Of a stretch of DNA of 64,000 nucleotides, positions 15,770 through 48,935 are shown piece by piece. This DNA comes from Mucor racemosus (Eukaryota; Mucoromycota; Mucoromycetes; Mucorales; Mucoraceae), in NCBI GenBank assembly GCA_027405735.1, contig JAPEHQ010000007.1:806001-870000 (forward strand), given 5' to 3'. Every line of letters begins with the position of its first letter. Position 1 is the first letter of the stretch. The notes under the pieces are model-generated. The model saw only the letters and a list, made by a program, of their open reading frames with translations. It had not been told where the DNA came from and did no database searches. Made by a program: the position numbers and the translations under genes.

Positions 15770-16299
15770 TGTTGTATTCCACCAAGTACCATATGTTATC
15801 ACCTTCCACAGTATCAATAATACACCTTACAATCTATTGACTATGACATGTATTGAAGTGCAAAGTTTTGATATCGGATATAAGAGACTCCTAGCGTACC
15901 AAGTTTAATCCAGTAATTACCAAGAACGCTTGGACCTCAATTATGACACCATATTATTTCATCCCAGCGGTTAATAAATGAAGTAGCTACCAAATCAACA
16001 TCCAAGCACAATTAGCACAGCATTGGAACAACACAACACACAAGCTCTGCAAGAACGGTTAAATCACGATTGATCCATTTCAATCCATAGATTACTATCA
16101 AACAGATCTAATGGTTTAATAGTGCCTTAAATTACATCTCAGGATCTCAATGTTAAATCAATATAAAAGGCCATACTTTTATATCTAAATAAACGATATC
16201 TTGTTTTTATTATACAGTTGAAGAACTGATTCATTACTCATTCTCTTTTAATTGTATTCTTTTTTAAGTATTATTTATCAATCCTGAAAATATACGAAA
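15770..16299 (+). mobile_element. Solo LTR, family A, without target duplication
   Basis: It starts TGTTGTATTCCACC and follows the 34388-34915 copy closely to its last bases (AATCCTGAAAATATACGA). A TATA-like AATATAAAAGG and AATAAACGATATC support the plus orientation. The final CA is altered and the flanks (TACTA before, no repeat after) show no 5-bp duplication. The 3' end has therefore mutated, or the copy arose by recombination between elements. Confidence 0.75.
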
Positions 16300-28528: not shown

Positions 28529-29463
28529 ACTTTAAAATTAAGAAAAAAATTACACTCTTTTTTGTACATTTTATCTGTTTTTTTTTCTCTTGGTTTTTCT
28601 CTCTCTCTTTCTTTCTTTCTTTCGTATCCTATCCTTTCTTTTTTCTATTACCAACAAATAATATTAATAAAAAAAAAGGTCTATTTGTTTGCTTATTGTG
28701 TAATTTATTGATTATTGACTCATTTTACATTGGTGTAAACAATTTTGTACATTGGAGAAGTAATACTAAATAGTTTTTCCTTCAATATTGCTGTTTGAAG
28801 ATTTTTAAAGAATCGTGCAAGTAGAGAATATCGCTCCCAAACTTCTGTTTACCTTTCCTAAATAATTATGAACATGTTAATATTTTTTTGTTCATGGGGA
28901 GAAAGGGCGTGAGCGTAATCGAGTATTTAAGCATTTTGCTTTGGCTTGCTTAAAAAATTGGAAGTTTGCTTGTATCTTTATTCAAATTGCTCTAATTTAA
29001 CAGATTCATAGAAAGACATTTTGCATATAAATATAATCTGATTTTTATATCTTGCATGTGTGTATCCAACAAAGTTATATATCTATAGCCTCTCCTTAAT
29101 GTGTATTTTGCTTGAATAAAGTTTTTATTTTTTTATTTTTTTTTTTTTTTTTTTTTTTGTAATTACTTGCACAAATAATGCAAATTTGAATTAATCATAT
29201 GGCAATTTAAATACTGTAATATATAATTGTGTATAAATAATCGCATTTGTACTCATACAGCATACAAACTGGAAATGCATGAACATTTCATTTATCACAC
29301 TTAAGAATAATCAGTTGCTGCATTTATAACGCTCGATAAATTAATTCAAGAAAAGTTGAGCCTCAAAGTTGTCAACCTTTAAACTTGAAGCATCCCATTT
29401 TTTTATAACTAACTTCATACTAAACTTTTTTCAGGATATACCTTAGATAAGACATAATAATCA
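28529..29463. other. Intergenic, T-rich 3' region of NSA2 and flank of the inverted repeat
   Basis: It contains pyrimidine-rich tracts, AATAAA-like signals (about 28663-28671) and a T run of about 23 (29136-29158). From about 29340 it shows weak similarity to the sequence just outside the right arm (46668-46870), including the GCCTCAAAGTT motif. Confidence 0.55.
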
Positions 29464-30975
29464 TAACTTAGTCGCATTATGCTACATATTCCTAAATTTA
29501 TTTTATACCTCGTAAAAGTCTCAAAAAAACGTAAATTTCACTGCATTTTCCTTAAAAACTAGGTCTCGCTTTTCATCCCTGTTCTGCTTTTTTTCCCACT
29601 AAATAACACCAAGAAAAAATTATATGCAAATGTACCTGAGATGTCAAACTTTAATCCAAAAATGAGTATCCGGAAATATCCTATTTTTTGCAGTTGATAT
29701 TAATTTTTAGATGTTAATGTTTCAGATTTTTTACGCGCATTTCACTGCTAATGAATTGAAAACTTTGAGGCTTCATATCTCTAGAAAGAATTAAGCTATA
29801 CTAACACTTTCTAATAATAAAACTTACTTGTTTTAAAGTGCTCTATAATATATTTGAATATAAAAAAATTCTGAGGGCTTTTATTTTTTTTCATTTTTTT
29901 GGCATTTCTATAGTATGTTTCAAAATATTGGGTAAATTGAGCAACGTTTTTTTTACATTCATATCATCAGGCTCGTTGAGCTCTTTCAGACCCAATTTAG
30001 AGTTTTTCAAAATATTGATTTTTCGTGGAGATACCCTCAAAAATGCGTATAAAAAGATACCACCATTTCTAGCTGCCATTTTTCCCTTGTATACCCTCAT
30101 CCCGAATTCTGAATTTGAAAAAAAAATTGACAGATATCTCGTTTCCTCTACGAAAAATGCAGATAAAAGGCTCAATAATAGCTCGAATGATAGATAATTT
30201 TATTGCACACTATTTGCATTATTTATTTTTGAAATATGTTTATAAAAAATGATATGTATCTTCAAAAAATCTCCAAACTTTCAATGGCATTTTGTGCAGA
30301 ATCTAATGTGAAATACTTACCTGGACTTTGTTAAGATGGATGCAGAATTTAAAACTCTACAAAAACCATTTAATATGCTATCTCAACTTACTTTGCAGTT
30401 CATGAGCCATTAAGCAATTTTGTTTTTTTGATTATTTTCGGGTCGATTTGTTAAATCAAATTTAAAACCCAGTTACCATAGGGTTAAGCTGTAATATGAA
30501 CTATTATTTTGATTATCTCGACAAAAAATTGATATTTTTTGCTGAAAGAAAAAGTGCAAAGTAGCTTAGCGTTGGATCTAGCTTGTGTATATAAAAAATT
30601 AATACCTCAATTTAGGTGCCCAATTTTTTATAACCAATTTTAGGTAAACCTTGGTCAATTTTGGTCAATGTTTGGCCAGTGCACTTATATTCTGGAATTC
30701 ATATTTCTATTTTTCGAGAGATATCAATAGTCTATAGAATAAAGGTACATTTTCCTTGAAGATTTTACGTGATTCGACTCATGAATATTGGGCAAAAACA
30801 TTCGAAAACATTTAAAAATTATCTGAAACCCGAAATCTACATTTATAACCGTAAAAAATCTACAACAAAAACCCTATATCAGCGAATTTCGATCCTAATG
30901 ACTTCCATTTTACATGAAAGTAGGGACATCTCTTTGACATGCTGATTTCAACGGGAAACGCCTATAAACTGTTAT

Positions 30976-31494
30976 ATGTCGAGAAACGCATCGCTAAAGT
31001 GCATCTATAGCTTACTACGTGCAGTGAAAAGGGGTAAATTTTATAAAAAAAAAGCTTTAAAAGAGATACTGTTTAAATTCTTCTTTATTAAATTATGGAT
31101 AATGTACAGTAAAATACTATTTTTACGTCTCTATTTATATTGTTTGGTTATTGCTATTTATCTGCCAGTTGTTCTGTCGACTTTCAGTTATTTCGCAACT
31201 TTGAATACATTGTTGGGGGTTGTTGAGTTTGTTCTCAACTTACGTGGTCAAGCACGGCTCTTAAATTGGCTTTTGACAACTGATATTGTCAATCACTACG
31301 ACCAAGCTATGCTTCCCATGGGCATAATGATTTGTACAACATCTGGGCAGAATAAACAATTTTGTGCACATCAGGCAGCCCAGATGAGCAGAGCAATGAG
31401 ATCAAGGTTTTTTAGTCAAGTTCCTAAAGTACTGTATATCAATCATGATATCATTGATAGCGAAAATAATTTGAATGATTTAAAGCAGACGTGA
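30976..31494 (+). CDS. Hypothetical protein, 172 residues, left-arm copy
   Basis: An open frame from MSRNASLKCIYSLL to LNDLKQT. The middle is strongly hydrophobic (IMYSKILFLRLYLYCLVIAI and LPVVLSTFSYFATLNTLLGV) and could form two membrane segments; the C-terminal third is polar (MICTTSGQNKQFCAHQAAQM). No family was recognised. An identical copy lies at 44637-45155. A strongly diverged, frame-broken relative of its 5' part is at 8270-8450. Being inside a repeat, it could be an element gene, part of a host gene or a chance frame. Confidence 0.35.
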   Translation: MSRNASLKCIYSLLRAVKRGKFYKKKALKEILFKFFFIKLWIMYSKILFLRLYLYCLVIAIYLPVVLSTFSYFATLNTLLGVVEFVLNLRGQARLLNWLLTTDIVNHYDQAMLPMGIMICTTSGQNKQFCAHQAAQMSRAMRSRFFSQVPKVLYINHDIIDSENNLNDLKQT

Positions 31495-31982
31495 GTTACT
31501 CTGATTCCACAACAGAATTGCCTTACTTATGAGATATATCAATTTGGGATTTGGGATTTGAAAGAGGAGTTCTGCCCATGTTCTTCTTTCGGCGACCAAA
31601 TGAGAACAACAACAACAACCTGTTTGGTAACACTAAAAGTATTTATGCCTTTGTCAATTTCTGTTTGTAACACGCAAAATCAATTGATCTAGACTTGCTT
31701 TTCTTTCCTTTTCCCCACTCTTTCCTGGGCTGTTTTATTTATGTTTAGAGCTACAACAAAAAGGACCAATATTTTTTATAAACTGAAATCCAGTAGCAGA
31801 TACAACAAGTACATGTTTTTTCTATTGTTTATTTGGAAATAAATTATTAACTGTAAAATTTAGGGCGCGTTGTAATATTTTTCTTAAACAAAAAAAGCAT
31901 CCAAGACTTTGTCATTTTGTTCCATCATCTATGTTATAATTAATGCTTTTTTGGTCTAAAGTCGATATCTACCTGCAGAAAA

Positions 31983-32227
31983 ATGGGTGATTATAAAAGT
32001 ATGTATAGCATTGACTTGAATGGATAAACTAATGTTAATCTATTTAGTTTCTAAAAAATATTTGTTTCTGTTTAATGACTAATAATAATAACCAACAGCT
32101 AAGAAGAAAAAAACGAGATGCTATCTTGTATCTTGTTGTATACCACTGCCAACTATCAAAGGTACATTATAATGATTACTTGCCAATTAATTTTACTAAT
32201 AAATCAATTTTTATAGGTCAAAAGTAA
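31983..32227 (+). CDS. Putative spliced microprotein (29 residues), left-arm copy
   Basis: Three small exons (31983-31998, 32099-32161, 32217-32227) join in frame to read MGDYKTKKKKTRCYLVSCCI then PLPTIKGQK. Intron 1 begins gtatgt and ends aaccaacag, with GACTAAT about 17 bases upstream of the end. Intron 2 begins gtacat and ends ttttatag, with a perfect TACTAAT branch site. Such complete signals are unlikely by chance. The product is a basic stretch followed by a Cys-rich hydrophobic segment with three cysteines, suggesting a membrane-associated or lipidated peptide. Family unknown. A mirror copy is at 43904-44148. Confidence 0.4.
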
Positions 32228-32893
32228 AGGATTATTCAGTTCAAAACGTTTGAAACAATTTAATTATGCTAATTTACATGGTTTATCATTTCTTTCCCAT
32301 TTAATTGCTATTATATTTAATCTTACTATTTTGCTTATTATACTACTAATCGACTCGTTCGTCCATTAGAGTTAACTCACCATCCTTGATTAGCATATCT
32401 ATAATAACGGTTCATTATTAGCTCATGGTATGCAAAACTATTAAAAGGGGTTGTATAATCCCAAATTTATCTGATTCAACTGCTAATGCTAAAGTAACAT
32501 TAAATTAGTTGTGTTGACTCGCAATAAAGTAAGGCGTTTCATCAAGCACGAGGTTGGGGTTCAATGTATTTCAGTTAAATTGAACAGATAGAGATATGGT
32601 TCATGCAGAGATCTATGAATGTGTGTGAGAGCTCATCATCGGATTTATATTAACACAAAAAAATGATCTAAATTGTGAAGCTTTGTCGACCTGTACGAGA
32701 TTTTTTTGTGGCGATATTTGGTGGCTTAGGTGTAATTTAGGCATTTAATTGTCAAACGTATTAAATCAAGATGAAGTTGGTTGATTGATATAACAGATAA
32801 TAAATTCAATGTCATTTATTGAATGGGCGAATGTAAATATATAAAGCAAAGCTTAATTTTGAATGAAAGTACTAATTATTCTGGTTACCATCA

Positions 32894-32938
32894 ATAGGTT
32901 CCAGTGATGGCCATGTTTATGTTTATGATATTGGAGAG
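32894..32938 (+). pseudogene. Dynein intermediate chain tail fragment, left arm
   Basis: Fifteen codons read IGSSDGHVYVYDIGE followed by gtaag, equal to the end of the longer fragment at 11795-11992. Sequence upstream is unrelated, so a junction lies at about 32890. The fragment is too short to function; it marks the edge of the repeat unit shared with 11950-13060. Confidence 0.55.
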
Positions 32939-33850
32939 GTAAGACTAAAGCTTAATTTAAATAATCTCTAGCGCAATAATTATAAAGTAAAACTATATTA
33001 CCATCAAATAAACTATTACACAACATTAATATGTATAAAGATTTATAGTAATTAGCTTGAATCAAGTGGATACAGCACCGTAAATCCTTGAAAAAGTTCT
33101 CAAGTATTATAAAATCTCTTATTTTTAAGACTTGAAAGGCTTATAAGCGGAATATTAATTTAAAAAATTATTCTTGTCCAGATCATCAATTTTGACGTTT
33201 TTAATTTTTTTTTTCTGATTTTACAAATCTAGAGTTAATTATACTACCAATTATAGAAACAAAAAATATACACATATAGAGACTTTAGCGCTCTATTTGC
33301 TCAATAAAAAATAACAAACATTTTTATTGCAAAATATTACATGAAAATCCTTAAACCAAAAAACCATTTTTGGGGGAAAAGTACAAAGTTTCATTACTTA
33401 AGACTTAATATTAAGCTTTTATAAGATGTGTATTACTTGTGGCTACAATTTTCTCTCACAATGTAGTACATTTAAACGTTGATTTTGGTATCAAAAATCG
33501 ATTTTTCTGTTTTTTGATCAAAATCATGAGTGTTGGTAAGGATTAAATGAGCCCCGAAAATGTCCGCTACAAAGTCTGAATTTTCAGATTTCACGTGGTT
33601 AAATACAGAAAAAACAAATACTTTTTATTTAAAACTTGGATATATCACAGTATTATAATCAGAGTTAGTAGTTTAATCTCGTTATGCTCAATTACGGAGT
33701 CGTTCTACCGGCTCGCTTTTGTAATTTTTTGATGAAGAATGTATGATATGATAGACGGTTTTTCTGGTAGAAAAATGTATGTTTCTATGATAACAGTTAC
33801 TGCCTATTATTTGGGTTAGTTTATGGTTCATGCGCTGTAATGCTGCTTTT

Positions 33851-34313
33851 GCAGATATTAATTGAATATAAGCAACTGCTTAATTATTTTAAGCTGATTT
33901 GCAAAAGTAAAACATCCCACCAAAACCTCCACCAAGACGAATAAACTTGGCATCATCGTACTGAATTGAATATAAGCAGCATCGATCACCATAAACTGAT
34001 TTACAACCAGTCTTATTTTTAAATAATTCTCTAGGATCACTTTTGTAAATGTAATAGCATCGAAGTGTTTATAATTGATCCACTTTATCCAATAATATAA
34101 GGCTTCTGTAATTTAGTATTTTGGGCTTCTTCGTTGTAAAAATGTTTTTCATCAATCATACAACTATAAAACTAAGATAACAGACGCGAAGTTATCATTT
34201 CATGCTAATAAATGTATTTTTACCTTGTGAAATAAGCAGTTAGTAGACTTGAAATTTTATACAGTTTTTGTTATTTATTTACCATCAGTGAAATGAAGTA
34301 TTTTAGTAATACA
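33851..34313. other. Unique insertion of about 460 bp that ends the perfect arm
   Basis: The other two copies of the repeat (12.9 kb and 42.28 kb) read straight from GCTTTTACATTGGCTGAAAT across this point; here the sequence is interrupted and resumes at GGCTGCAATAAGC. No terminal repeats or duplication were found. On the minus strand one frame reads DDAKFIRLGGGFGGMF, recalling the RxGGGFGGK motif of xanthine dehydrogenase/aldehyde oxidase. This is weak evidence for a captured gene piece. Confidence 0.4.
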
Positions 34314-34387
34314 TAGGCTGCAATAAGCACGTTAGCATGGTTTCAATTGCGCTAAATAATGCAACGTCTTTAAAATCCTTTTCTACG

Positions 34388-34915
34388 TGTTGTATTCCAC
34401 CGACTAGTATCATACATTATCACCTTCTACAGTATCAATACATCTTACAATCTATTGACTACGACATGTATTGAAGTGCAAGTCTTGATATCGGATATAA
34501 GAAACTCCTAGCATACTAAGTTTAATCCAGTAATTACTAAGAACGCTTTGACCTCAATTATAACACCACATTATTTCATCCCAGCAATTAACCAATTAAG
34601 TGGCTATCAAATCAACATCCAAGCATATTTAGCGCAGCATTGAAACAAGACAACTCACAAGCTCTGCAAGAACGGTTAAATTATGATTGATCCATTTCAA
34701 TCCATAGATTACTATCAAACAGATCCAATGGTTCAATAGTGCCTTAAATTACATCTCAGGATCTCAATGTCAAATCAATATAAAAGGCCATACTTTTACA
34801 TCTAAATAAACGATATCTTGTTTTTATTATACAGTTGAAGAGCTGATTAATTACTCATTCTTTTATAATTGTATTCTTTTTAAGTACTATTTATCAATCC
34901 TGAAAATATACGACA
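34388..34915 (+). mobile_element. Solo LTR, family A, with 5-bp target duplication
   Basis: 528 bp, from TGTTGTATTCCACCGAC to GAAAATATACGACA, flanked by CTACG at 34383-34387 and 34916-34920. It has a TATA-like AATATAAAAGG and an AATAAA signal in the plus direction. The matching empty site is readable in the repeat copy at 12978-12982 (CTACC). It is the cleanest member of the family in the window. Confidence 0.88.
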
Positions 34916-34935
34916 CTACGTGTGTTGTTCCTCTC

Positions 34936-35254
34936 TGTAGTAAACTACATATACCAAGTTTGTTTAGTAATCAAATTGATCTTAGTCAACATCTAAGATC
35001 TAATAACCTTAAATCACACAAAACTTTAAAATGTCAAATTGTACCACTGGTACTCCCAAACTAGGAACTAAACCATGAAGATCTTGCTTCAAGATCTTAT
35101 TACTGTATTATTAATAGAATTAGAAAATAGTATATATCACAAAGGCTATGGTAATCCATAAACCTTTGCTTTTACTTGATATCTTAAATAAATATCAAAG
35201 AGTTATAATTGTAGTCGCAACGCTTTTTTTTGTTTAATTACTATTTTTGTAGCA
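34936..35254 (+). repeat. 5' LTR of the chromovirus
   Basis: It starts TGTAGTAAACTACATATACC and ends ATTTTTGTAGCA. The first 13 bases form an inverted pair (GTAGTAAACTAC). TATA-like ATAGTATATATCAC and TTAAATAAATATC elements lie in the second half and would serve transcription start and polyadenylation. Confidence 0.92.
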
Positions 35255-35304
35255 TTTTTTACAATTAACTTTTCTTTACTCTGTTCGTCAAATTTACTAC
35301 ACAA

Positions 35305-38300
35305 ATGTCATCTGGAAGCTCCCCTGTTGGTATGTCCTTGTCTGGTAACAATACTTCAAGTATTGACACCCCTCCTCCCATATCTGCGTCTGATCATTTA
35401 GAGCAAATGAACATCGTAGCAAACCAAGAAGAAACTACTAAGTCCATTGATGAAGACGTTGAGATGTCAGATGTGGCTGAAATCAAGACTTCTGCTGTCG
35501 CTAAGAAGGATCCTATTATTGTATTGAAGAAATTAATCCTCAAAAGAGACCAATATGTATCCTTATATACGGATATGATCGCCACTGACTCTTCGATCCA
35601 AAAGGATATCGATCATGCTGTTGAAATCCGCGAGAAAATTGAAAATCTAAACAAAGACATATCAGTCCTCAAAAACTCTATTCGACTATCCAATGAAAAG
35701 GTATCCGCTTCCGTTGACATGCATATTGGTAAGCTCAATATTGGTGGCCTCCGTCTTTCTAAACAAGATCTCCCCAAGTTCCAATTGAAGTCTAGTACAA
35801 CCAAATACTTCCCCAAGGATGAATCTTATGAATCAGTAAACCATTTCCTTAGGTCATTCGAGAAGGTGATATCATCTAGTGGTGAGGATGTAGAGAACAT
35901 TTGGAAGAGATATGTTCCATTGACTTTACCGTATGAATTGGACAACTGGCTTAATAATGAAGTATTATCTTGCAATACATGGACCGAAGTGGGTGTCATC
36001 TTCAACAAGAAATTTGGTAACAATGCAATCCTTAAATTACAAGCTAGAAGAGAGGTCTTCAACGCAAAGATGAGACCTGGAGAATCCACAGAAGAATACA
36101 CTGCTCGTTTCTCCAAGGCAGTGTCTGATGCTAATTACTCTATGGATAATACTACGATTGGCGATGCGTTTCTAACTGGGTTCCCTGAGGAATGGCAAAC
36201 TCAAATTAATACGGTGTTACATTGTAACCATTCGGATCGTGATTGCTGGATCATTGATGAGATTTATACCGCTGCTATTAACGTGTACAACTCCAAACCT
36301 GCTCCCATCTCCTTTGTGAACAAATCTCGTACCTCCCCTGCTGGCTCTGTTGAATCGAACCAAAACAAAAAGTTTAAACCTAATGGTATCAAGGAAACTA
36401 CTGGTTTCTATTGCTCAAATCATGGTGGTACTGCCTCCAAACATAATGAAAAAGATTGTTATAATAACAAAGTCGCTAATGCTGCTTCCCCTTCGGGATC
36501 TACTCAAAAATTTATCAAACCTAATTTTCTCGGTAACAAAAATGTTCCTAGGAAAGCTACTAGCAATACGTTTTGTAAGTGGTGTGGTGTTTTGTGGTTC
36601 TTTGGTCACTCATGTCCTGAATATGAAGCAAAGAGAAATGGTAATGTTGCTGTTTTATCTGTTCAAAGTTCCAACAATAGTATTAAAAAGAAATCAAAGA
36701 AATCCAAAGGAAAACAAAAGGCTGATGGAAATGAAAAACTACTTCGTGAATGTCTCGAGGATGACTCATACTGTGAGTATAGAAACAAACAAACAATTAA
36801 AAATTCTTTTCAGCTAATCACTCCTTTGCTTTTGAATAATATTAGAGTCCTTGGTAAAGTTGATCCAGGTGCGGACATATCATTCATAAATAAATCAATT
36901 TTAAATAAAGATTTTAAAAATATAAAAAATATAAAAACTATGGGCTACTTAAATTTTCTCTCTGTAAATGAAGATGGGTCTAATAGTCGTACCAAAAGAG
37001 TAGGACAAACTGAACCTATGGAAGTTACTTATTTAAATGGAATCGTATTTAGACATCAATTCGAAATTATTGAATTCAATGATGAGATGAAAACTGAATT
37101 TGATGTTTTGCTCGGTTCTGATATCCTACCTAAGTTAAAAATATATCTTAGTGGTGTTGCACATGCATGGCCAAATGATTCAAAAAAAGAAATGTCTCAA
37201 TTTGAAAATATCAATTACGATACAAAAAATGAACATGATCCTGATAATGCTGATTATGGATCACCCAACGAACGTGAACATTTAATGAAATCAATTCAGG
37301 ATTCATTAGACAGAAATATAAAAATAAGACCAGAAGCTGTTTGCTCAATGAAAGAAAGTATCGTACACATCCCAATTGATGATCCATCAGATTGCTTTGT
37401 GAGACAGTACCCATTACCGGTCAATGCACACAACGAAATAAAAGCACAATTAAAGGAATGGTTAGATAACGGGATTGTTCAAAAGACTGTACCCTCATCT
37501 ACCTATCACTCACCTTTGCTATGTGTACCAAAAAAGGATCTTAATGGCAAACCCACGAAACTTCGTATTTGTTGTGATCTAAGAAAAATTAATGCCGCTA
37601 TATCTCGTAATTATCATGAGAATTACGCTGTACCAAAAATCAATGAAATTTTTGATAGAGTATCAGCTAATGCACGTATTATAAGTAAAATTGACTTACA
37701 CCAGGCATACATGTCGTATAGTGTACACGAAAATTCGAGGGAAGCTCTTACATTCAGCTATAACGGATTGTTTTACCATTGGTCTAGAGCACCGTACGGA
37801 TTAAAATTTATGAGTTCATTGTTTGTGAAATGCATGACCATTTTACTAAATGATATTCATATTGAACTTCAAAATGAAATGAAAAAATATAACAAAAATC
37901 AAGATAGTGATGATACCTTTTATGGAGGGGTTGAACACTATGTGGATGATATAGTCTTATTTAGCAGAGATACTGTCTCGCATGTAAGACTTATAAACCT
38001 AGTCATTAATCGATTAACATCAGTTAATTTACGCATAAATGTGGACAAATGCACTTGGTTTAAAACATCTGTATTTTTGTTAGGATTTGTTGTTGGACCT
38101 GGTATTACCAAAATTGATATGAGACGTCTATCAGATATTGATAATTGGCCAATCCCTCAAACTGCCAAACAAGTTAAAAGCATTATGGGAGTGGTATCTC
38201 ATCTGCGAGATTACTGTCCTATGCTATCAAAAGTAGCTGCACCTATTGATCAATTAAGAAATGATAATGATGTAAAAAAGAAATGGACACAGTTACATAC

Positions 38301-40362
38301 TGACCGTTTCAACGCAATCAAACAAATATTATTATCGAATCAAATACTGCATACCCCAGTGATGGAAGATAAATTCTTCCTTCAAGTAGACGCAAGTCTG
38401 TATGGGATTGCTGCTTGCTTATATCAAAAAGATAAAGTAGGTCGTATTAAACACATTGGATTTGTTAGTAAGTCTTTAAATCAAGCTGAACGCAACTGGT
38501 CAACAAATCGCCGTGAAACTGCTGCAATTATGTTTGGCCTCCAAAAATTTAGATCCTTATTATGGGGACACCCTAACTTGGAAATCTTAACTGATCATAT
38601 TGCCCTGACATACATGTTTACATCTACAAATTTAAATAGTACCTTACAAAATTACTTGGAGACATTAAGTGAATATAATTTTACTATCTCTCACGTAAAA
38701 GGCATAGATAATGTTCTTAGTGATGCATTATCTCGTCTGTATCCTCCAATTGAAGAAGATCAGATACTGGAAGAAGAAAATCAAAAACAGATGAAAAGAT
38801 TACAAAGATTTATTTTGATGAAACGGGCCAACAAAAATAATGAAATTGTTCGAACAACCAAAATATATTCTAAAGATGTAAATCTGAATGTACTAGCCGT
38901 TAAATTAAGCAGTAAAGAATTTAAATCATCTGTTACGGATTATGTATGTCCACCTGAAAAGGATCGTGCTCAAATCATTAAGGATGCTCATGAAATTGGA
39001 CATTTTGGTATAGAAAGTTGTGTAAAACACATTCATGTCTATTTTGGTCTCCATTGGAACACCATATATCAAGATGTCAAAGAGGTGCTTTTAACTTGTC
39101 GAGAATGTGCTTTACATAATATCTCAAAAAAGGGATTTAATCCAGCTCGTAGTATCGTCAGTTTTCAAGTTCTCGATCATGTCGCATTTGATTTAGTAGG
39201 CCCTTTTTCCGTCACTGACAAAGGAAATGTATACATTCTAGTAATGATCGACCTCTGTACACGATACGTTGTTGCTCGTGCTATCCCAAACAAATCAAGT
39301 ACCACTGTAGCCCAAACTATCCTGAATATTTTTGGTGACTATGGCGTAGCATTATCCGTCATCCAAAGTGATAATGGAAAAGAATGGTCCAATACGTTAA
39401 TGAGCCACCTTACTAAATCATTAAATATACAGCATCGTTTCTCTACTCCATACTATAGTCAATCAAATGGAAGTGTTGAGAATGCGATAAAAACTGTAAC
39501 TCAAACCCTGCGAAAAATGTGTGGTAACGACACTCGTAATTGGGATGATCGATTGGCAATTTGTCAGTTGGCTATAAACATGAAAATCAAGGATCGTACT
39601 GCTAGCACACCATTTAGTTTAATGTTTGCTCGTCAAGTAAATACAAATCGATCCACTGAAAACTTAAATTTGAATGGTCGAAAAGCCCTTTCTCTATCAG
39701 AACTCCAACAGCGAGCTGAATATATGAATTCCATTGTTTTCCCTGCTATTCAAACTAGAACCACTAGATTAGTCGAGGAATATAATAAAAAGATGGATGA
39801 TAAACATTACATAATTGATATACCTTTTGATACACCTGTTATGGTCAGACTGAAGGAAGGCCGTGAAAATAAATTAGCACCTCTGTATGTTGGACCATAC
39901 GTTGTTGCAAGGAAAACAAAAGCGGGAAATTACGTATTGCGTGATGAAAAGAATGAACTTCTCCATAGAGAATACACACCCTCTGAATTAAAAGTTATTT
40001 CACTAGATGAAACTGCAATTGAAGAAGAAACATTTGAAGTCGAAGATATTCGTGATCATCGAAAAAACAAAGATGGTGTTATTGAATACTTGGTCAAATG
40101 GGTTGGTTATGGTGAACGCGAAAATAGCTACATCACCCCTGACCTTTTCTCTTCTCCTCTTCCTATTAAAAAATATTGGGAAAAGGTTAAACGAAATAAA
40201 GAATATGACTTGGAAAGAAAACAAAAATTAATCGAACAGAATAATACTTCTCGAAAAAAATTAAATAACAAAAATCCCTCTAGTTACCCTAGTAAACGGA
40301 AACTTGGTGCCGATGTATCACAGACATCGAAACCCCACAATCGTCGCAAGACTAAACCTTAA
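35305..40362 (+). CDS. Gag-pol polyprotein of Ty3/chromovirus retrotransposon
   Basis: One uninterrupted frame of 1685 codons, with no frameshift or stop between gag and pol. Gag capsid-like region at about residues 150-340. Two Cys/His clusters follow (CSNHGG..HNEKDC and CKWCG....HSC), not the standard CCHC knuckle. Protease at about 518 has DPGA instead of D(S/T)GA. Reverse transcriptase has YVDD at 879-882; RNase H starts near VDAS (1028); integrase has an HHCC-like zinc region and the triad D1296, D1356, E1392 with the D(35)E spacing. A chromodomain lies at about 1576-1635 (FEVEDIRDH...YLVKWVGYG). It should drive copy-and-paste transposition, with the chromodomain guiding integration to chromatin. 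The ATG at 35305 lies 50 bases after the LTR. Confidence 0.95.
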   Translation: MSSGSSPVGMSLSGNNTSSIDTPPPISASDHLEQMNIVANQEETTKSIDEDVEMSDVAEIKTSAVAKKDPIIVLKKLILKRDQYVSLYTDMIATDSSIQKDIDHAVEIREKIENLNKDISVLKNSIRLSNEKVSASVDMHIGKLNIGGLRLSKQDLPKFQLKSSTTKYFPKDESYESVNHFLRSFEKVISSSGEDVENIWKRYVPLTLPYELDNWLNNEVLSCNTWTEVGVIFNKKFGNNAILKLQARREVFNAKMRPGESTEEYTARFSKAVSDANYSMDNTTIGDAFLTGFPEEWQTQINTVLHCNHSDRDCWIIDEIYTAAINVYNSKPAPISFVNKSRTSPAGSVESNQNKKFKPNGIKETTGFYCSNHGGTASKHNEKDCYNNKVANAASPSGSTQKFIKPNFLGNKNVPRKATSNTFCKWCGVLWFFGHSCPEYEAKRNGNVAVLSVQSSNNSIKKKSKKSKGKQKADGNEKLLRECLEDDSYCEYRNKQTIKNSFQLITPLLLNNIRVLGKVDPGADISFINKSILNKDFKNIKNIKTMGYLNFLSVNEDGSNSRTKRVGQTEPMEVTYLNGIVFRHQFEIIEFNDEMKTEFDVLLGSDILPKLKIYLSGVAHAWPNDSKKEMSQFENINYDTKNEHDPDNADYGSPNEREHLMKSIQDSLDRNIKIRPEAVCSMKESIVHIPIDDPSDCFVRQYPLPVNAHNEIKAQLKEWLDNGIVQKTVPSSTYHSPLLCVPKKDLNGKPTKLRICCDLRKINAAISRNYHENYAVPKINEIFDRVSANARIISKIDLHQAYMSYSVHENSREALTFSYNGLFYHWSRAPYGLKFMSSLFVKCMTILLNDIHIELQNEMKKYNKNQDSDDTFYGGVEHYVDDIVLFSRDTVSHVRLINLVINRLTSVNLRINVDKCTWFKTSVFLLGFVVGPGITKIDMRRLSDIDNWPIPQTAKQVKSIMGVVSHLRDYCPMLSKVAAPIDQLRNDNDVKKKWTQLHTDRFNAIKQILLSNQILHTPVMEDKFFLQVDASLYGIAACLYQKDKVGRIKHIGFVSKSLNQAERNWSTNRRETAAIMFGLQKFRSLLWGHPNLEILTDHIALTYMFTSTNLNSTLQNYLETLSEYNFTISHVKGIDNVLSDALSRLYPPIEEDQILEEENQKQMKRLQRFILMKRANKNNEIVRTTKIYSKDVNLNVLAVKLSSKEFKSSVTDYVCPPEKDRAQIIKDAHEIGHFGIESCVKHIHVYFGLHWNTIYQDVKEVLLTCRECALHNISKKGFNPARSIVSFQVLDHVAFDLVGPFSVTDKGNVYILVMIDLCTRYVVARAIPNKSSTTVAQTILNIFGDYGVALSVIQSDNGKEWSNTLMSHLTKSLNIQHRFSTPYYSQSNGSVENAIKTVTQTLRKMCGNDTRNWDDRLAICQLAINMKIKDRTASTPFSLMFARQVNTNRSTENLNLNGRKALSLSELQQRAEYMNSIVFPAIQTRTTRLVEEYNKKMDDKHYIIDIPFDTPVMVRLKEGRENKLAPLYVGPYVVARKTKAGNYVLRDEKNELLHREYTPSELKVISLDETAIEEETFEVEDIRDHRKNKDGVIEYLVKWVGYGERENSYITPDLFSSPLPIKKYWEKVKRNKEYDLERKQKLIEQNNTSRKKLNNKNPSSYPSKRKLGADVSQTSKPHNRRKTKP

Positions 40363-40365
40363 TTT

Positions 40366-40367
<2 letters not shown>

Positions 40368-40405
<38 letters not shown>
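40368..40405 (+). repeat. A(38) tract between gag-pol stop and 3' LTR
   Basis: An unbroken run of 38 A lies six bases after the stop codon and about 75 bases before the 3' LTR. It is not part of the LTR and is unusual inside an LTR element. It could stem from slippage or from reverse transcription of a template with an internal A run. Confidence 0.85.
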
Positions 40406-40408
<3 letters not shown>

Positions 40409-40480
40409 TACTACTTTACTTTACACTATTTCATTACTTCTCTTGTCAACACATTCATCAATGTGTTTGGCCGGGGAGCA

Positions 40481-40799
40481 TGTAGTAAACTACATATACC
40501 AAGTTTGTTTAGTAATCAAATTGATCTTAGTCAACATCTAAGATCTAATAACCTTAAATCACACAAAACTTTAAAATGTCAAATTGTACCACTGGTACTC
40601 CCAAACTAGGAACTAAACCATGAAGATCTTGCTTCAAGATCTTATTACTGTATTATTAATAGAATTAGAAAATAGTATATATCACAAAGGCTATGGTAAT
40701 CCATAAACCTTTGCTTTTACTTGATATCTTAAATAAATATCAAAGAGTTATAATTGTAGTCGCAACGCTTTTTTTTGTTTAATTACTATTTTTGTAGCA
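40481..40799 (+). repeat. 3' LTR of the chromovirus
   Basis: It matches 34936-35254 base for base as far as I could compare, including the ends TGTAGTAAAC and TTTGTAGCA. It is preceded by CCGGGGAGCA (probable polypurine tract) and followed by the CTCTC duplication. Confidence 0.93.
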
Positions 40800-40804
40800 C
40801 TCTC

Positions 40805-41874
40805 TAACACAAAAAATAGTAATTCGACTAAAAAAAGCGATGGGAATACAATCATAACTCTTCTTTGATATTTATTAAGATATAAGGTAAAGCAAAGGTT
40901 TCTTACCATAGCCTTTGTGATGTAATGTATATACTATTTTTTGATTCTATTAATAATACAGTAATAAGATTTTAAAGCAAGATCTTCGTGGTTTAGTTCC
41001 TAGTGCAGTAAATTACGATGTTATTTACTAAAATAAAAAAAATATAAAAAAATAAAGCAGTAGAAATACAATTATAATCAGCTAAAGTTTTTATTACAAA
41101 AGATTTCTGAAGAGTTAAAATAATTGAAAAGTATGAGGGTATTTATAGTGATTTGGAGAACTTGGATACCATCAGACTTGAATGGATGTATATTTAGTAA
41201 TCTTCCAGTTTTGAGTACATTGTTATTGATTTGATATTTTAAGGGGTAAATTGTATAGAGCATTGACCATAAGGGATTGTATGTCAAGTGTGACAATATC
41301 GACCTTTTGGGAAATGGTTGTTTTTGTTTATTTCTGTTATATCTATTCTATGTAACCTTGATTTTTAAGGGGTAGTTTTTATATGCTTGAATCTTATTTA
41401 TATTTATATTGATACTGCAACTACGATATAGATGAGTAATTGACTAAATTGATATCTTTGTTTATTATCATTATTGATTTGGATAGAATCCTGTTTTGAT
41501 ATATATGTCATTTGTGTAATTGATTGCGCCGTGATCAAGGGTGCTATCATCTACACGACATGTATGGTTCAAAAAGGGCATTTCATATTTTTAGCATGCG
41601 TTTGTTATTGTGTTCAATTGAAGCGTTTGTTTATTATCGTTGTTCACATTTCAAGTGGCATCATATTTTATGAGCGACACTTGAAATTTAGGTTGCTTTA
41701 TTTTTATCAAGCGTTTTTAGTATGTAATTCCACTGCACCTAGTTTGGAAGTACCAGTGGTACAATTTGACATTTTAATGTTTTTGTGATTTTGTGATTTA
41801 AGGTTACTAGATCATCGATGTTGCCTAAGATCAATTTAATTACTAAACAAACTTGGCATATGTAGTTTACTACA
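40805..41874 (-). mobile_element. Older solo LTR of the same chromovirus family, inverted and interrupted
   Basis: On the minus strand it starts TGTAGTAAACTACATATGCC and follows the 319-bp LTR with many substitutions and small indels to its end at 40805, where the final bases have drifted. It is bordered by CTCTC at 40800-40804 and 41875-41879. It is split by the LTR C insertion at 41004-41737; without it the LTR is about 331 bp. Divergence shows it is much older than the adjoining complete element. Confidence 0.85.
41004..41737 (-). mobile_element. Solo LTR, family C, nested in the older solo LTR
   Basis: 734 bp with ends TGCAGTAAATTAC and GTAATTCCACTGCA (TG...CA, inverted ends), flanked by CCTAG at 40999-41003 and 41738-41742. 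The uninterrupted chromovirus LTR reads GTTCCTAGTTTGG at this site without the insertion. A TATA-like CACTATAAATACCC on the minus strand suggests that orientation. A decayed fragment of the family is at 7120-7600. The internal frame at 41474-41788 is not credible as a gene. Confidence 0.85.
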
Positions 41875-41879
41875 CTCTC

Positions 41880-42280
41880 TTTTTGTTTTCATAATCCAAG
41901 TGAGATTTTATGGATACATACAATCTTATTTATAGAAAGAATAATAACAAAGACTAGTAACATTTATCATGAAGGACGTAGGCTTCATTGCAAGAAAAAA
42001 TAATGGTAAAAGAAAGAACCAAGAGCTTCTAGGTCTTGGTTTGAAAGACTAATTATAAAAATTACTGTACATTTCAATATGAGTTAAAAATGGAATTGGC
42101 TTCAAAATTGGCTGTTCAATATCCTCGAAAACCGACATAATATACCTTATCAAACGGTAAATATATCCTTGGAATATGAAAATTAAAAGAGAGAGAGAAA
42201 ATATGTAGAAATGGATTTTCATGGCTTTACGTTATTTAACGCAATTAAACCCCTACTAAATTGCACATTTCAGCCAATGT
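41880..42280. other. Inner junction of the inverted repeat
   Basis: Bases 41880-42180 are sequence without a recognised feature. 42180-42280, read on the minus strand, is diverged from but clearly related to 34314-34387 plus the flank of the insertions, and to 12865-13040. The ancestral palindrome centre therefore probably lies at about 41.9-42.2 kb. Confidence 0.55.
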
Positions 42281-43192
42281 AAAAGCAGCATTACAGCGCA
42301 TGAACCATAAACTAACCCAAATAATAGGCAGTAACTGTTATCATAGAAACATACATTTTTCTACCAGAAAAACCGTCTATCATATCATACATTCTTCATC
42401 AAAAAATTACAAAAGCGAGCCGGTAGAACGACTCCGTAATTGAGCATAACGAGATTAAACTACTAACTCTGATTATAATACTGTGATATATCCAAGTTTT
42501 AAATAAAAAGTATTTGTTTTTTCTGTATTTAACCACGTGAAATCTGAAAATTCAGACTTTGTAGCGGACATTTTCGGGGCTCATTTAATCCTTACCAACA
42601 CTCATGATTTTGATCAAAAAACAGAAAAATCGATTTTTGATACCAAAATCAACGTTTAAATGTACTACATTGTGAGAGAAAATTGTAGCCACAAGTAATA
42701 CACATCTTATAAAAGCTTAATATTAAGTCTTAAGTAATGAAACTTTGTACTTTTCCCCCAAAAATGGTTTTTTGGTTTAAGGATTTTCATGTAATATTTT
42801 GCAATAAAAATGTTTGTTATTTTTTATTGAGCAAATAGAGCGCTAAAGTCTCTATATGTGTATATTTTTTGTTTCTATAATTGGTAGTATAATTAACTCT
42901 AGATTTGTAAAATCAGAAAAAAAAAATTAAAAACGTCAAAATTGATGATCTGGACAAGAATAATTTTTTAAATTAATATTCCGCTTATAAGCCTTTCAAG
43001 TCTTAAAAATAAGAGATTTTATAATACTTGAGAACTTTTTCAAGGATTTACGGTGCTGTATCCACTTGATTCAAGCTAATTACTATAAATCTTTATACAT
43101 ATTAATGTTGTGTAATAGTTTATTTGATGGTAATATAGTTTTACTTTATAATTATTGCGCTAGAGATTATTTAAATTAAGCTTTAGTCTTAC

Positions 43193-43237
43193 CTCTCCAA
43201 TATCATAAACATAAACATGGCCATCACTGGAACCTAT
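43193..43237 (-). pseudogene. Dynein intermediate chain tail fragment, right arm
   Basis: Mirror of 32894-32938, reading IGSSDGHVYVYDIGE before a gtaag on the minus strand. Confidence 0.55.
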
Positions 43238-43903
43238 TGATGGTAACCAGAATAATTAGTACTTTCATTCAAAATTAAGCTTTGCTTTATATATTTACAT
43301 TCGCCCATTCAATAAATGACATTGAATTTATTATCTGTTATATCAATCAACCAACTTCATCTTGATTTAATACGTTTGACAATTAAATGCCTAAATTACA
43401 CCTAAGCCACCAAATATCGCCACAAAAAAATCTCGTACAGGTCGACAAAGCTTCACAATTTAGATCATTTTTTTGTGTTAATATAAATCCGATGATGAGC
43501 TCTCACACACATTCATAGATCTCTGCATGAACCATATCTCTATCTGTTCAATTTAACTGAAATACATTGAACCCCAACCTCGTGCTTGATGAAACGCCTT
43601 ACTTTATTGCGAGTCAACACAACTAATTTAATGTTACTTTAGCATTAGCAGTTGAATCAGATAAATTTGGGATTATACAACCCCTTTTAATAGTTTTGCA
43701 TACCATGAGCTAATAATGAACCGTTATTATAGATATGCTAATCAAGGATGGTGAGTTAACTCTAATGGACGAACGAGTCGATTAGTAGTATAATAAGCAA
43801 AATAGTAAGATTAAATATAATAGCAATTAAATGGGAAAGAAATGATAAACCATGTAAATTAGCATAATTAAATTGTTTCAAACGTTTTGAACTGAATAAT
43901 CCT

Positions 43904-44148
43904 TTACTTTTGACCTATAAAAATTGATTTATTAGTAAAATTAATTGGCAAGTAATCATTATAATGTACCTTTGATAGTTGGCAGTGGTATACAACAAGA
44001 TACAAGATAGCATCTCGTTTTTTTCTTCTTAGCTGTTGGTTATTATTATTAGTCATTAAACAGAAACAAATATTTTTTAGAAACTAAATAGATTAACATT
44101 AGTTTATCCATTCAAGTCAATGCTATACATACTTTTATAATCACCCAT
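43904..44148 (-). CDS. Putative spliced microprotein, right-arm copy
   Basis: Mirror copy of 31983-32227 with the same start, both introns and the same branch sites. If expressed, two identical genes point toward each other across the spacer. Confidence 0.4.
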
Positions 44149-44636
44149 TTTTCTGCAGGTAGATATCGACTTTAGACCAAAAAAGCATTAATTATAACAT
44201 AGATGATGGAACAAAATGACAAAGTCTTGGATGCTTTTTTTGTTTAAGAAAAATATTACAACGCGCCCTAAATTTTACAGTTAATAATTTATTTCCAAAT
44301 AAACAATAGAAAAAACATGTACTTGTTGTATCTGCTACTGGATTTCAGTTTATAAAAAATATTGGTCCTTTTTGTTGTAGCTCTAAACATAAATAAAACA
44401 GCCCAGGAAAGAGTGGGGAAAAGGAAAGAAAAGCAAGTCTAGATCAATTGATTTTGCGTGTTACAAACAGAAATTGACAAAGGCATAAATACTTTTAGTG
44501 TTACCAAACAGGTTGTTGTTGTTGTTCTCATTTGGTCGCCGAAAGAAGAACATGGGCAGAACTCCTCTTTCAAATCCCAAATCCCAAATTGATATATCTC
44601 ATAAGTAAGGCAATTCTGTTGTGGAATCAGAGTAAC

Positions 44637-45155
44637 TCACGTCTGCTTTAAATCATTCAAATTATTTTCGCTATCAATGATATCATGATTGATATACAGT
44701 ACTTTAGGAACTTGACTAAAAAACCTTGATCTCATTGCTCTGCTCATCTGGGCTGCCTGATGTGCACAAAATTGTTTATTCTGCCCAGATGTTGTACAAA
44801 TCATTATGCCCATGGGAAGCATAGCTTGGTCGTAGTGATTGACAATATCAGTTGTCAAAAGCCAATTTAAGAGCCGTGCTTGACCACGTAAGTTGAGAAC
44901 AAACTCAACAACCCCCAACAATGTATTCAAAGTTGCGAAATAACTGAAAGTCGACAGAACAACTGGCAGATAAATAGCAATAACCAAACAATATAAATAG
45001 AGACGTAAAAATAGTATTTTACTGTACATTATCCATAATTTAATAAAGAAGAATTTAAACAGTATCTCTTTTAAAGCTTTTTTTTTATAAAATTTACCCC
45101 TTTTCACTGCACGTAGTAAGCTATAGATGCACTTTAGCGATGCGTTTCTCGACAT
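44637..45155 (-). CDS. Hypothetical protein, 172 residues, right-arm copy
   Basis: Identical in protein sequence to 30976-31494 but on the minus strand. See that entry for its properties. No promoter evidence distinguishes the copies, since their upstream sequences are also identical. Confidence 0.35.
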   Translation of the reverse strand: MSRNASLKCIYSLLRAVKRGKFYKKKALKEILFKFFFIKLWIMYSKILFLRLYLYCLVIAIYLPVVLSTFSYFATLNTLLGVVEFVLNLRGQARLLNWLLTTDIVNHYDQAMLPMGIMICTTSGQNKQFCAHQAAQMSRAMRSRFFSQVPKVLYINHDIIDSENNLNDLKQT

Positions 45156-46667
45156 ATAACAGTTTATAGGCGTTTCCCGTTGAAATCAGCATGTCAAAGA
45201 GATGTCCCTACTTTCATGTAAAATGGAAGTCATTAGGATCGAAATTCGCTGATATAGGGTTTTTGTTGTAGATTTTTTACGGTTATAAATGTAGATTTCG
45301 GGTTTCAGATAATTTTTAAATGTTTTCGAATGTTTTTGCCCAATATTCATGAGTCGAATCACGTAAAATCTTCAAGGAAAATGTACCTTTATTCTATAGA
45401 CTATTGATATCTCTCGAAAAATAGAAATATGAATTCCAGAATATAAGTGCACTGGCCAAACATTGACCAAAATTGACCAAGGTTTACCTAAAATTGGTTA
45501 TAAAAAATTGGGCACCTAAATTGAGGTATTAATTTTTTATATACACAAGCTAGATCCAACGCTAAGCTACTTTGCACTTTTTCTTTCAGCAAAAAATATC
45601 AATTTTTTGTCGAGATAATCAAAATAATAGTTCATATTACAGCTTAACCCTATGGTAACTGGGTTTTAAATTTGATTTAACAAATCGACCCGAAAATAAT
45701 CAAAAAAACAAAATTGCTTAATGGCTCATGAACTGCAAAGTAAGTTGAGATAGCATATTAAATGGTTTTTGTAGAGTTTTAAATTCTGCATCCATCTTAA
45801 CAAAGTCCAGGTAAGTATTTCACATTAGATTCTGCACAAAATGCCATTGAAAGTTTGGAGATTTTTTGAAGATACATATCATTTTTTATAAACATATTTC
45901 AAAAATAAATAATGCAAATAGTGTGCAATAAAATTATCTATCATTCGAGCTATTATTGAGCCTTTTATCTGCATTTTTCGTAGAGGAAACGAGATATCTG
46001 TCAATTTTTTTTTCAAATTCAGAATTCGGGATGAGGGTATACAAGGGAAAAATGGCAGCTAGAAATGGTGGTATCTTTTTATACGCATTTTTGAGGGTAT
46101 CTCCACGAAAAATCAATATTTTGAAAAACTCTAAATTGGGTCTGAAAGAGCTCAACGAGCCTGATGATATGAATGTAAAAAAAACGTTGCTCAATTTACC
46201 CAATATTTTGAAACATACTATAGAAATGCCAAAAAAATGAAAAAAAATAAAAGCCCTCAGAATTTTTTATATTCAAATATATTATAGAGCACTTTAAAAC
46301 AAGTAAGTTTTATTATTAGAAAGTGTTAGTATAGCTTAATTCTTTCTAGAGATATGAAGCCTCAAAGTTTTCAATTCATTAGCAGTGAAATGCGCGTAAA
46401 AAATCTGAAACATTAACATCTAAAAATTAATATCAACTGCAAAAAATAGGATATTTCCGGATACTCATTTTTGGATTAAAGTTTGACATCTCAGGTACAT
46501 TTGCATATAATTTTTTCTTGGTGTTATTTAGTGGGAAAAAAAGCAGAACAGGGATGAAAAGCGAGACCTAGTTTTTAAGGAAAATGCAGTGAAATTTACG
46601 TTTTTTTGAGACTTTTACGAGGTATAAAATAAATTTAGGAATATGTAGTATAATGCGACCAAGTTAT

Positions 46668-48935
46668 ATCTATTTTGCAGTGCTCAAGGGGTATCCTGAG
46701 AAGTGGTAGTATGAGGCTAAGTTATTAAAAAACGTGGCTCATACTTAAATATGTTAAGGAGCATTTTAAAGCATGTTTCATTATTAAAAAGTGTTAATAT
46801 ACCTTAGTTTTTTCCATAGGTACTAAGGCTCAAAGTTTTGAAATTTCAGCATTGAAAGCTAGAAGTCGGATATTTGAAAGGTTTATTTTAGCTCATAACG
46901 AATAGTAATTCAACGTAAAGGATCATTGTATTTGATTTAAACATCATTAAAACACTTTTATATTTTTTGCATTGTCATTTTCATTGAAAAGAGGGTAAGT
47001 AGGGATCATAAACCAGTATTATTTTTTTAAATAAAAAAAATATTATCCTTAAGAGAATTTAGCTTCGTTTTCGTGCTAGCTTCTATTTGAGAATTTATTG
47101 TGAAATATTGATGGTATGTTTAAAAATTCTACTTGGCCACCATTTAGATTTTGGGACATACTTTTATTCTATGGTAAAAATCAGATAGTATTGTTTCTAA
47201 TGTTAAACCTTAAATCTATGTAAAATGATGGATCGTAGCATATTCATGCAAATTCCATAAAGCAACTCTATAAAATCAACATATACCGGCATAACTAATA
47301 TGCATTCTCTTTTGTTTTTTAAGTTCGTGTTTTGATTCCATTATTAAAAGAAATCATTTCTCTGCTTTGACGACATGTTGATAACAATTTAATCCTCTTG
47401 CAGCTAAGAGAAAAACATCTAAGCTCGAAACCATTCTGCTTGACTATTTCTTATTTTAATTGTATGTCTACCGACATTGATTAGCTTCATGAACAATGAA
47501 AGCGACATTATTTCTACTGCATATGTACGCACAAATATTCAGAATATCTGAGAAGCATGTGCTTTATTTTCAAGATAAGAGAGGGTACAGTATAGCATTG
47601 CGATTTTAAACATAATCAACATGATCACATATTGGATGTTCCGATGTTTGATAATTATGCTCACATTGAAATTCTGCAGAAAAAAAAAGGGTATAAACAT
47701 CATTTTGTGTGCCTGAATGAAGGGGCATTTATATATGTGCCATGTACTACATAACAATCTGGATCCAGCCTAAACATATAAATGCATGCACAATGGAAAG
47801 TTTTCTTCGGTGCATATTTTTATTTACATTTACATGGATATTTATTTGTCATTTATCTGCCTTTTTCATGTTTTGTGTTATCATGGATAAACGGATTTTT
47901 TTTCCGGCATTCAAAAATCTAGAAATAATTTTCTCTTGGTTTTTCTACAACCTTTCAAGCCGTAAGTTTATAAAAAGTTTATACAATATAAACTTGTCAG
48001 AAAAAGTTTATTTTAAATTTAAAGAAATGGACTAGCATATTTATGGATATTTTCAAATGTAAATCAGATTTCTTTTTCAATGTGTGCACCATGAAAAAAA
48101 AAAAATTCTGTCGATGATCTCCGAAAATTGGAATCTCTTTCCGGGTGAATGCGTTTCTTAATTTGACGACGATCTTTGGTGGAATTTTATTGTATAATGT
48201 AGCACGTACTACAGAAAAAGAAAAAAAAATAATACTATCATTATATGATGGTGATACAAAAAAACCTTATGTACAAGATAAGGTTTGTGAAATTTTTTAT
48301 TATAAATTGAACCATCTCCCATCTTGTTTTTTTTTTTTTTTTTTGTATAATACATGATATATATTATACCAAAATGAGGGGAATTGACTGGCTGGGTTAA
48401 CATATTTACGACCCAACTATAATTCAGAATTACATGAGGAATAAATGTGTTTTTTGTATGTTTGTATCTCTTTGTGGCTGAACCGAGGGATTTTGTATAG
48501 CTTTTCAATTTTTTTTTCTTCCCCCCCACCATTTCCCCCAATTTTCTGCAAAAATAAAACCTCATCAATCAATTTATTTTATGTTTTACTCGCTGCCCCT
48601 TTTTATATTACATGTTGTAAATGTGTTTTTTTATTTGTTCTCCTGAAGGAATTTGAATATAATAAATAATTAACCGAATGATGATTGGATGAAATCTACA
48701 TCATCGTCGTCATTTTACTACAAAACAAGAGTTGGGTGCCCAAGGTGACCCGCATTTACATTTGTGAAACTCTCTCTACGTCATGGGCAGTTACTCCGAT
48801 TATTATTATCAAGTATTTCCTGGTTTGGCCCCTTAAAAAAATAAATAAATAAGAAAAATTTTACATCTGCATTCAATTGATTCCCTTCTCTTTTCTCCTT
48901 CTTTTCTTTTTTCTTGTAAATCAACACAATTAAAA
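46668..48935. other. Intergenic stretch, no credible gene
   Basis: 46745-46870 is a diverged direct copy of 46280-46400 (TTATTA.AAAGTGTTA.TATA..TTA and GGCTCAAAGTTTT.AA), a spacing of about 465 bp. The remainder is AT-rich with T and A runs; the frames at 47742-48035 and 48145-48357 look random. A TC-rich leader (48880-48920) precedes the Con7-like gene. Confidence 0.6.

Follow-up and report, generated by a model that had tools for sequence, protein, structure and literature searches.

Probable gene conversion between inverted copies of an old dispersed repeat in Mucor racemosus

The window analysed here is a stretch of 64,000 nucleotides from the mucoralean fungus Mucor racemosus (GenBank assembly GCA_027405735.1, contig JAPEHQ010000007.1, positions 806,001 to 870,000), lying on what is called contig C7 in the 53.2-Mb, 54-contig assembly of a single genome. 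It carries a long inverted repeat, the two arms of which enclose a spacer of 8.4 kb containing a retrotransposon, and it has no N. A BLASTN comparison of the window with itself paired 29398-33853 with 46732-42278 on the minus strand, at 99.46% identity over 4,459 columns. An ungapped repeat scan returned 3,991 nt at 100% complementarity (29863-33853 / 42278-46268) and an additional outer piece of 472 nt at 94% complementarity. Base by base over 29464-33849, only three differences separate the arms, namely two substitutions (29470 and 29481) and a one-base length difference in an A run (29862). A gap at 33850-33853 depends on the alignment, and the repeat scan pairs these positions perfectly. 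Because the two substitutions, 11 bp apart, sit at the outer edge, the outer limit of the clean tract was set at 29482. Self-BLASTN, alignment and repeat scan together place the tract at 29482-33853 on the plus strand (left arm) and 42278-46649 on the minus strand (right arm), a length of 4,372 bp with no substitutions and the single A-run indel. A first-pass annotation made from the sequence alone had proposed a 4.39-kb near-identical inverted repeat (29464-33850 / 42281-46667), with one A-run base and a few outer-edge changes between the arms. All three comparisons recover this repeat.

Homology between the arms continues past both ends of the clean tract. On the outer side, the left tip (29398-29481, plus strand), a member of the unit A family described below, is a diverged homologue of the right tip (46650-46732, minus strand). 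Aligned in register, the two score 57, whereas the best of 2,000 shuffles reached 28, and sequences lying wholly outside the tract (29340-29463 and 46668-46800) also scored above all 2,000 shuffles. In a 27-row alignment of the repeat family over 29398-29481, the tips of the two arms are 65% identical, differing in 31 of 88 columns. Over 29398-29463 alone the arms are 59% identical, against a median of 67% for 19 rows other than the arms, which makes the right tip a little more divergent than is typical. This comparison kept the 20 of 27 rows with at least 60% identity to one copy, the excluded rows being non-homologous at the tip; with these included, the median over all family rows is 63%.

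On the inner side, a segment of about 456 bp (33854-34309, plus strand) is present in the left arm only. No further copy of it was found among the repeat loci compared, the rest of the genome not having been searched. Beyond this segment, the left inner flank (34310-34386, plus strand) aligns with the right inner flank (42205-42281, minus strand) at 76.6% identity over 77 bp (E=1e-9), a score reached by none of 2,000 shuffles. Both edges of the tract thus lie inside diverged homology, and the arms are therefore two already diverged copies that are identical only in the middle. The earlier description of related but diverged flanks holds on both sides, and the check proposed with it, whether the flanks outside the tract are homologous beyond chance, gave homology exceeding all 2,000 shuffles at either end.

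A genome search with one arm, yielding 53 matches from the best 40 of 5,677 candidates, divided the arm into three dispersed units. Unit A (29398-31010, plus strand, right limit approximate) is represented by 30 copies in the loci compared, with a median pairwise identity of 82.6%. Unit B (31292-32896, plus strand) is 79-85% identical to the other listed copies. Unit W (32892-33853, plus strand), which runs on in the right arm to about 42140, has 17 copies in the loci compared and a median pairwise identity of 89.4%. Each arm is thus built from several old dispersed repeats and does not represent the duplication of a unique locus. The first-pass view of an old palindrome is amended in this respect, the arms being copies, in opposite orientations, of one old dispersed composite. 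The homology of the A-B-W repeat extends beyond the ends initially assigned to it, and no class is claimed for it. In a check for GC-biased change, the guanine plus cytosine content of the presumably converted copies (about 0.29 for A and 0.28 for W) lies within the range of the other compared copies. Directly outside the right arm, at 46741-46857, lies a piece 76% like the interior of unit A, in direct orientation to the arm.

A second inverted pair of the same repeat, here called C7b, lies about 400 kb away on the same contig (C7:421233-426570 / 430052-435394), with arms 98.5% identical over 5,351 columns. The palindromes of the window and C7b are only 83% alike, and the two arms of one locus are thus far closer to each other than to those of the other locus. 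Between offsets 5240 and 9994 (4,754 aligned columns), a single substitution and one A-run indel are all that separates the C7b arms. Over the 570 aligned columns from offset 9995 on, still in register, they differ by 60 substitutions (10.5%) and 18 gap columns, a step in identity with a Fisher P of 2e-58. This inner edge has no insertion, so a tract can end without one. Of the earlier claim that a 460-bp insertion marks the inner edge in the window and blocks conversion there, the insertion (about 456 bp) and its position therefore stand, while its role as a block need not. On contig C4, a third inverted pair shows no difference in the 1,990 bp aligned.

The tract edges bear on the possibility that the palindrome is a recent inverted duplication, in which a replication template switch copied one arm in inverted form, the homologous flanks being repeat pieces of greater age that lie alongside. 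Seemingly identical arms occur in several inverted pairs, as would be expected of new palindromes, and at the outer edge of C7b the tract runs to where homology ceases. Further, the mixed orientation of the equal-score pairs counted below (10 against 9), whose starts are separated by about 2.6 to 24 kb, requires no fixed element. However, at three of the four readable edges the identity stops inside homology that is in register but diverged. A fresh copy could produce this only by inserting precisely in register into an inverted homologue already present, and such a replacement would in effect be conversion. A de novo origin is accordingly regarded as improbable.

The left end of unit W (32891-32941) retains a 17-residue remnant of an exon of cytoplasmic dynein intermediate chain, and the fuller W copy of C7b matches the solved dynein 1 intermediate chain 2 with E=7e-13. 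Three dynein-fragment queries were used to search the genome, each listing the best 150 of 2,476-2,574 candidate loci, in overlapping lists. Pairs within 30 kb were counted as close, and an equal score over about 246 bp served as a proxy for identity. With the first query, 31 close pairs were found among the best 150; 11 of the 21 inverted pairs had equal scores compared with none of the 10 direct pairs (Fisher P 0.005). Similarly, equal scores were seen in 9/16 inverted and 0/6 direct pairs with the second query, and in 8/17 inverted and 1/13 direct pairs with the third, the direct pair being C9:2121886/2128802. In the union of the three lists, a hand tally gave 19 equal-score inverted pairs against one direct pair (binomial P 4e-5). 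Only 66 of about 11,100 non-close pairs in the first list had equal scores, and chance equality is thus rare. The share of pairs that are identical is overstated, because identical members enter or miss a best-150 list together, but the comparison of inverted with direct pairs is unaffected by this. A further query, the 172-amino-acid (aa) open frame of the arm, gave three equal-score close pairs among its best 150 matches, all inverted (the window, C7b and C22:817451/828726).

As a control, Ty3 elements were examined, and the close equal-score pairs, read by eye among the listed rows of 186 matches, were all direct. This finding bears on the possibility of an assembly or polishing artefact, which has some footing in that the present analysis is based on an assembly. 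Against it, the Ty3 pairs listed are direct and not inverted. In addition, the outer and inner junctions differ between the arms of the palindrome, the arms are separated by an 8.4-kb spacer with a retrotransposon, and the window has no N. The diverged homologous tips, together with this spacer, speak against the simple fold-back in assembly that the first-pass annotation listed as an alternative, and an artefact of either kind seems most unlikely.

By hand tally, the 19 inverted equal-score pairs comprise 10 in +/- and 9 in -/+ arrangement, with distances of about 2.6 to 24 kb between starts. These figures are relevant to the proposal that the palindrome is a foldback transposon, with long terminal inverted repeats made identical at each transposition. 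The order A-B-W is common to all four arms of the window and C7b palindromes and is found in decayed form on contig C15, which a mobile unit might explain. Against this, A, B and W occur singly at many places, homology reaches past the identical tract at three of the four edges that could be read, and the spacers of the window and C7b share no match of at least 100 bp outside W. As the equal-score pairs face both ways at such varied spacings, a single foldback element does not fit, and we consider this explanation very unlikely.

Gene conversion between inverted copies of the repeat is the best explanation of these observations, and we put its probability at roughly three in four. It is based on the tract edges in the window, the second tract with its clean inner edge, and the predominance of inverted pairs among close pairs with equal scores. 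The arm-to-arm conversion suggested in the first-pass annotation is thereby supported, as both edges lie inside diverged homology and C7b has the same sharp inner step. In the mechanism proposed, which draws on established recombination biology, two copies of the old dispersed A-B-W composite would have come to lie in inverted orientation 8.4 kb apart. By recent homologous recombination, a break or stalled fork in one arm may then have been repaired using the other arm as template, so that about 4.4 kb of one arm was copied over the other, in one event or several. The route could have been non-crossover or crossover, and a crossover would only have inverted the spacer. Copying would have run until matching became poor, ending outside at poorly matching sequence and inside at the 456-bp insertion. 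Like events would have occurred at other inverted pairs of the repeat in the genome. In the 27-row family alignment the outer tips do not reveal the donor arm. The palindrome itself presumably has no selected function.

Several observations weigh against this interpretation. The evidence comes from the assembled sequence of a single isolate. The equal score is a proxy, verified letter by letter at three loci (window, C7b and C4). Many inverted close pairs have unequal scores (10/21, 7/16 and 9/17 in the three best-150 lists), and an inverted pair of the same composite on C15 (C15:1226464-1244405) is decayed and not homogenised, its unit A copies being 82% identical over 1,239 columns. Only two palindromes have readable flanks, and the figure of three in four edges inside homology refers to both window edges and the inner edge of C7b. 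The outer edge of C7b is simply the end of homology, as 1,045 of 2,000 shuffles reach the score of the sequence outside it. Identical direct copies also exist: one is the equal-score close pair on C9, and in a direct tandem array of unit A on contig C2 (C2:1229443-1234827, period about 2,073 bp), two of the four tandem units are identical over the compared part. Lastly, the inverted bias could instead reflect deletion of identical direct repeats.

This last point applies to the pattern across the genome and does not conflict with conversion in the window. Conversion may act on pairs in both orientations, with identical close direct repeats being deleted afterwards; direct repeats can be lost through annealing or crossover. 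The direct equal-score pair on C9 is in keeping with such a loss, as are the close direct pairs in the loci compared, which are mostly 91-97% alike and thus above the family median. Equal-score direct Ty3 tandems nevertheless persist in the genome, and the proposal competes only with an orientation-specific reading, not with conversion at the window locus. We regard it as possible, at somewhat less than even odds. A general statement of the orientation-specific reading is equally tentative. It would hold that dispersed, transposon-like copies inverted to each other at distances of up to about 25 kb tend to become uniform across kilobases, giving dozens of palindromes with identical arms that arise by conversion of chance inverted neighbours and not by duplication.

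Other features of the arms and spacer may be described briefly. The spacer element is a Ty3/gypsy chromodomain long terminal repeat (LTR) retrotransposon (34936-40799, plus strand) with 319-bp LTRs that are 100% identical and a 1,685-aa open reading frame (ORF) at 35305-40362, and it looks intact from these features. Its reverse transcriptase is protein-identical at six places in the genome, the window included, and some of its relatives lie in direct tandem, about 6 kb apart. A dispersed 526-bp repeat in the spacer (34388-34913, plus strand), with a copy at 15770-16297 (91% identity), is possibly a solo LTR. A transporter gene nearby shares 92% identity with a Mucor fragilis gene and 90% with a gene from Mucor lusitanicus.

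The 172-aa open frame in the arm (30976-31494, plus strand) has the same translation in its mirror at 44637-45155 (minus strand). It was considered as a gene under selection and dropped. No Pfam family was assigned to it and no homologue at E <= 0.001 was found in a protein database search (33 word-sharing candidates), and its relatives among the best 150 genome matches are partial or carry stops, with six stops in the C7b copies. For these reasons no protein is claimed for it. A dynein intermediate chain exon fragment also occurs at 11780-12019 of the window and is carried genome-wide by a high-copy repeat. In the loci compared, the fragments covering the site mostly have an in-frame stop at the same position, with the exception of C7b, as if a single captured fragment, already broken, had been amplified. 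Three copies of the fragment with equal scores (C6:2843401, C20:4981 and C49:5422), of which those on C6 and C20 are near contig ends, are possibly part of a shared subtelomeric block.

A role as centromere or mating locus was also considered. By equal score or alignment, there are three palindromes on C7 (the window, 425k and 482k), three on C2, and two each on C3, C8 and C24. Since several pairs occur on one contig and not one per chromosome, a centromere role is not indicated, and that reading was dropped. The mating-locus reading was set aside, judging from the genes identified beside the repeat and the ORF list, with no search aimed at mating genes.

Homogenised inverted repeats are known from several other systems. 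In palindromes of the human and ape Y chromosomes, intrachromosomal arm-to-arm gene conversion keeps identity very high, with multi-kilobase tracts that in P6 have a mean of 2,068 bp and a maximum above 9 kb (PMC3403216, PMC3723533). These share with the Mucor palindrome the inverted arms flanking a spacer, the near-identity of the arms and a tract of several kilobases. They differ in lying on a sex chromosome and in having been compared across species and many men, whereas in Mucor the arms are copies of an old repeat, located on an ordinary contig of one genome. Long inverted repeats of gene pairs in Caenorhabditis are likewise nearly perfect, with structure conserved more than sequence, and gene conversion has been proposed for them (PMC1803023). 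They involve gene pairs in three species, unlike the repeats in one genome with visible tract edges described here. In Candida tropicalis, centromeres consist of inverted arms of 2-5 kb around a core of 2-5 kb and are homogenised, the arms being more alike within a locus than between loci, and one core has been lengthened by retrotransposons (PMC4741521, PMC7292649). The Mucor palindrome resembles them in the greater likeness of arms within one locus and in the retrotransposon between the arms. Those are functional centromeres, one per chromosome, whereas several equal-score pairs occur per contig in Mucor.

The process itself is known, and it is the genome-wide pattern in Mucor that is worth testing. 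Among open-licence papers on inverted repeats and gene conversion in fungi, Mucor and Mucoromycota, judged from listings, there is no apparent description of homogenised inverted repeat copies in the Mucorales. In the papers cited above, homogenisation of palindromes is discussed for sex chromosomes, gene pairs and centromeres, where selection can be invoked. In M. racemosus it acts on seemingly decayed repeats, which provides a case without obvious function and with many replicate loci in one genome. Two questions thereby become countable: how far a homologous template is still used where the sequence has diverged, and whether conversion is more frequent between inverted neighbours or direct neighbours that are identical simply disappear. 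A practical consequence is that arm identity is unusable for dating repeats of this kind.

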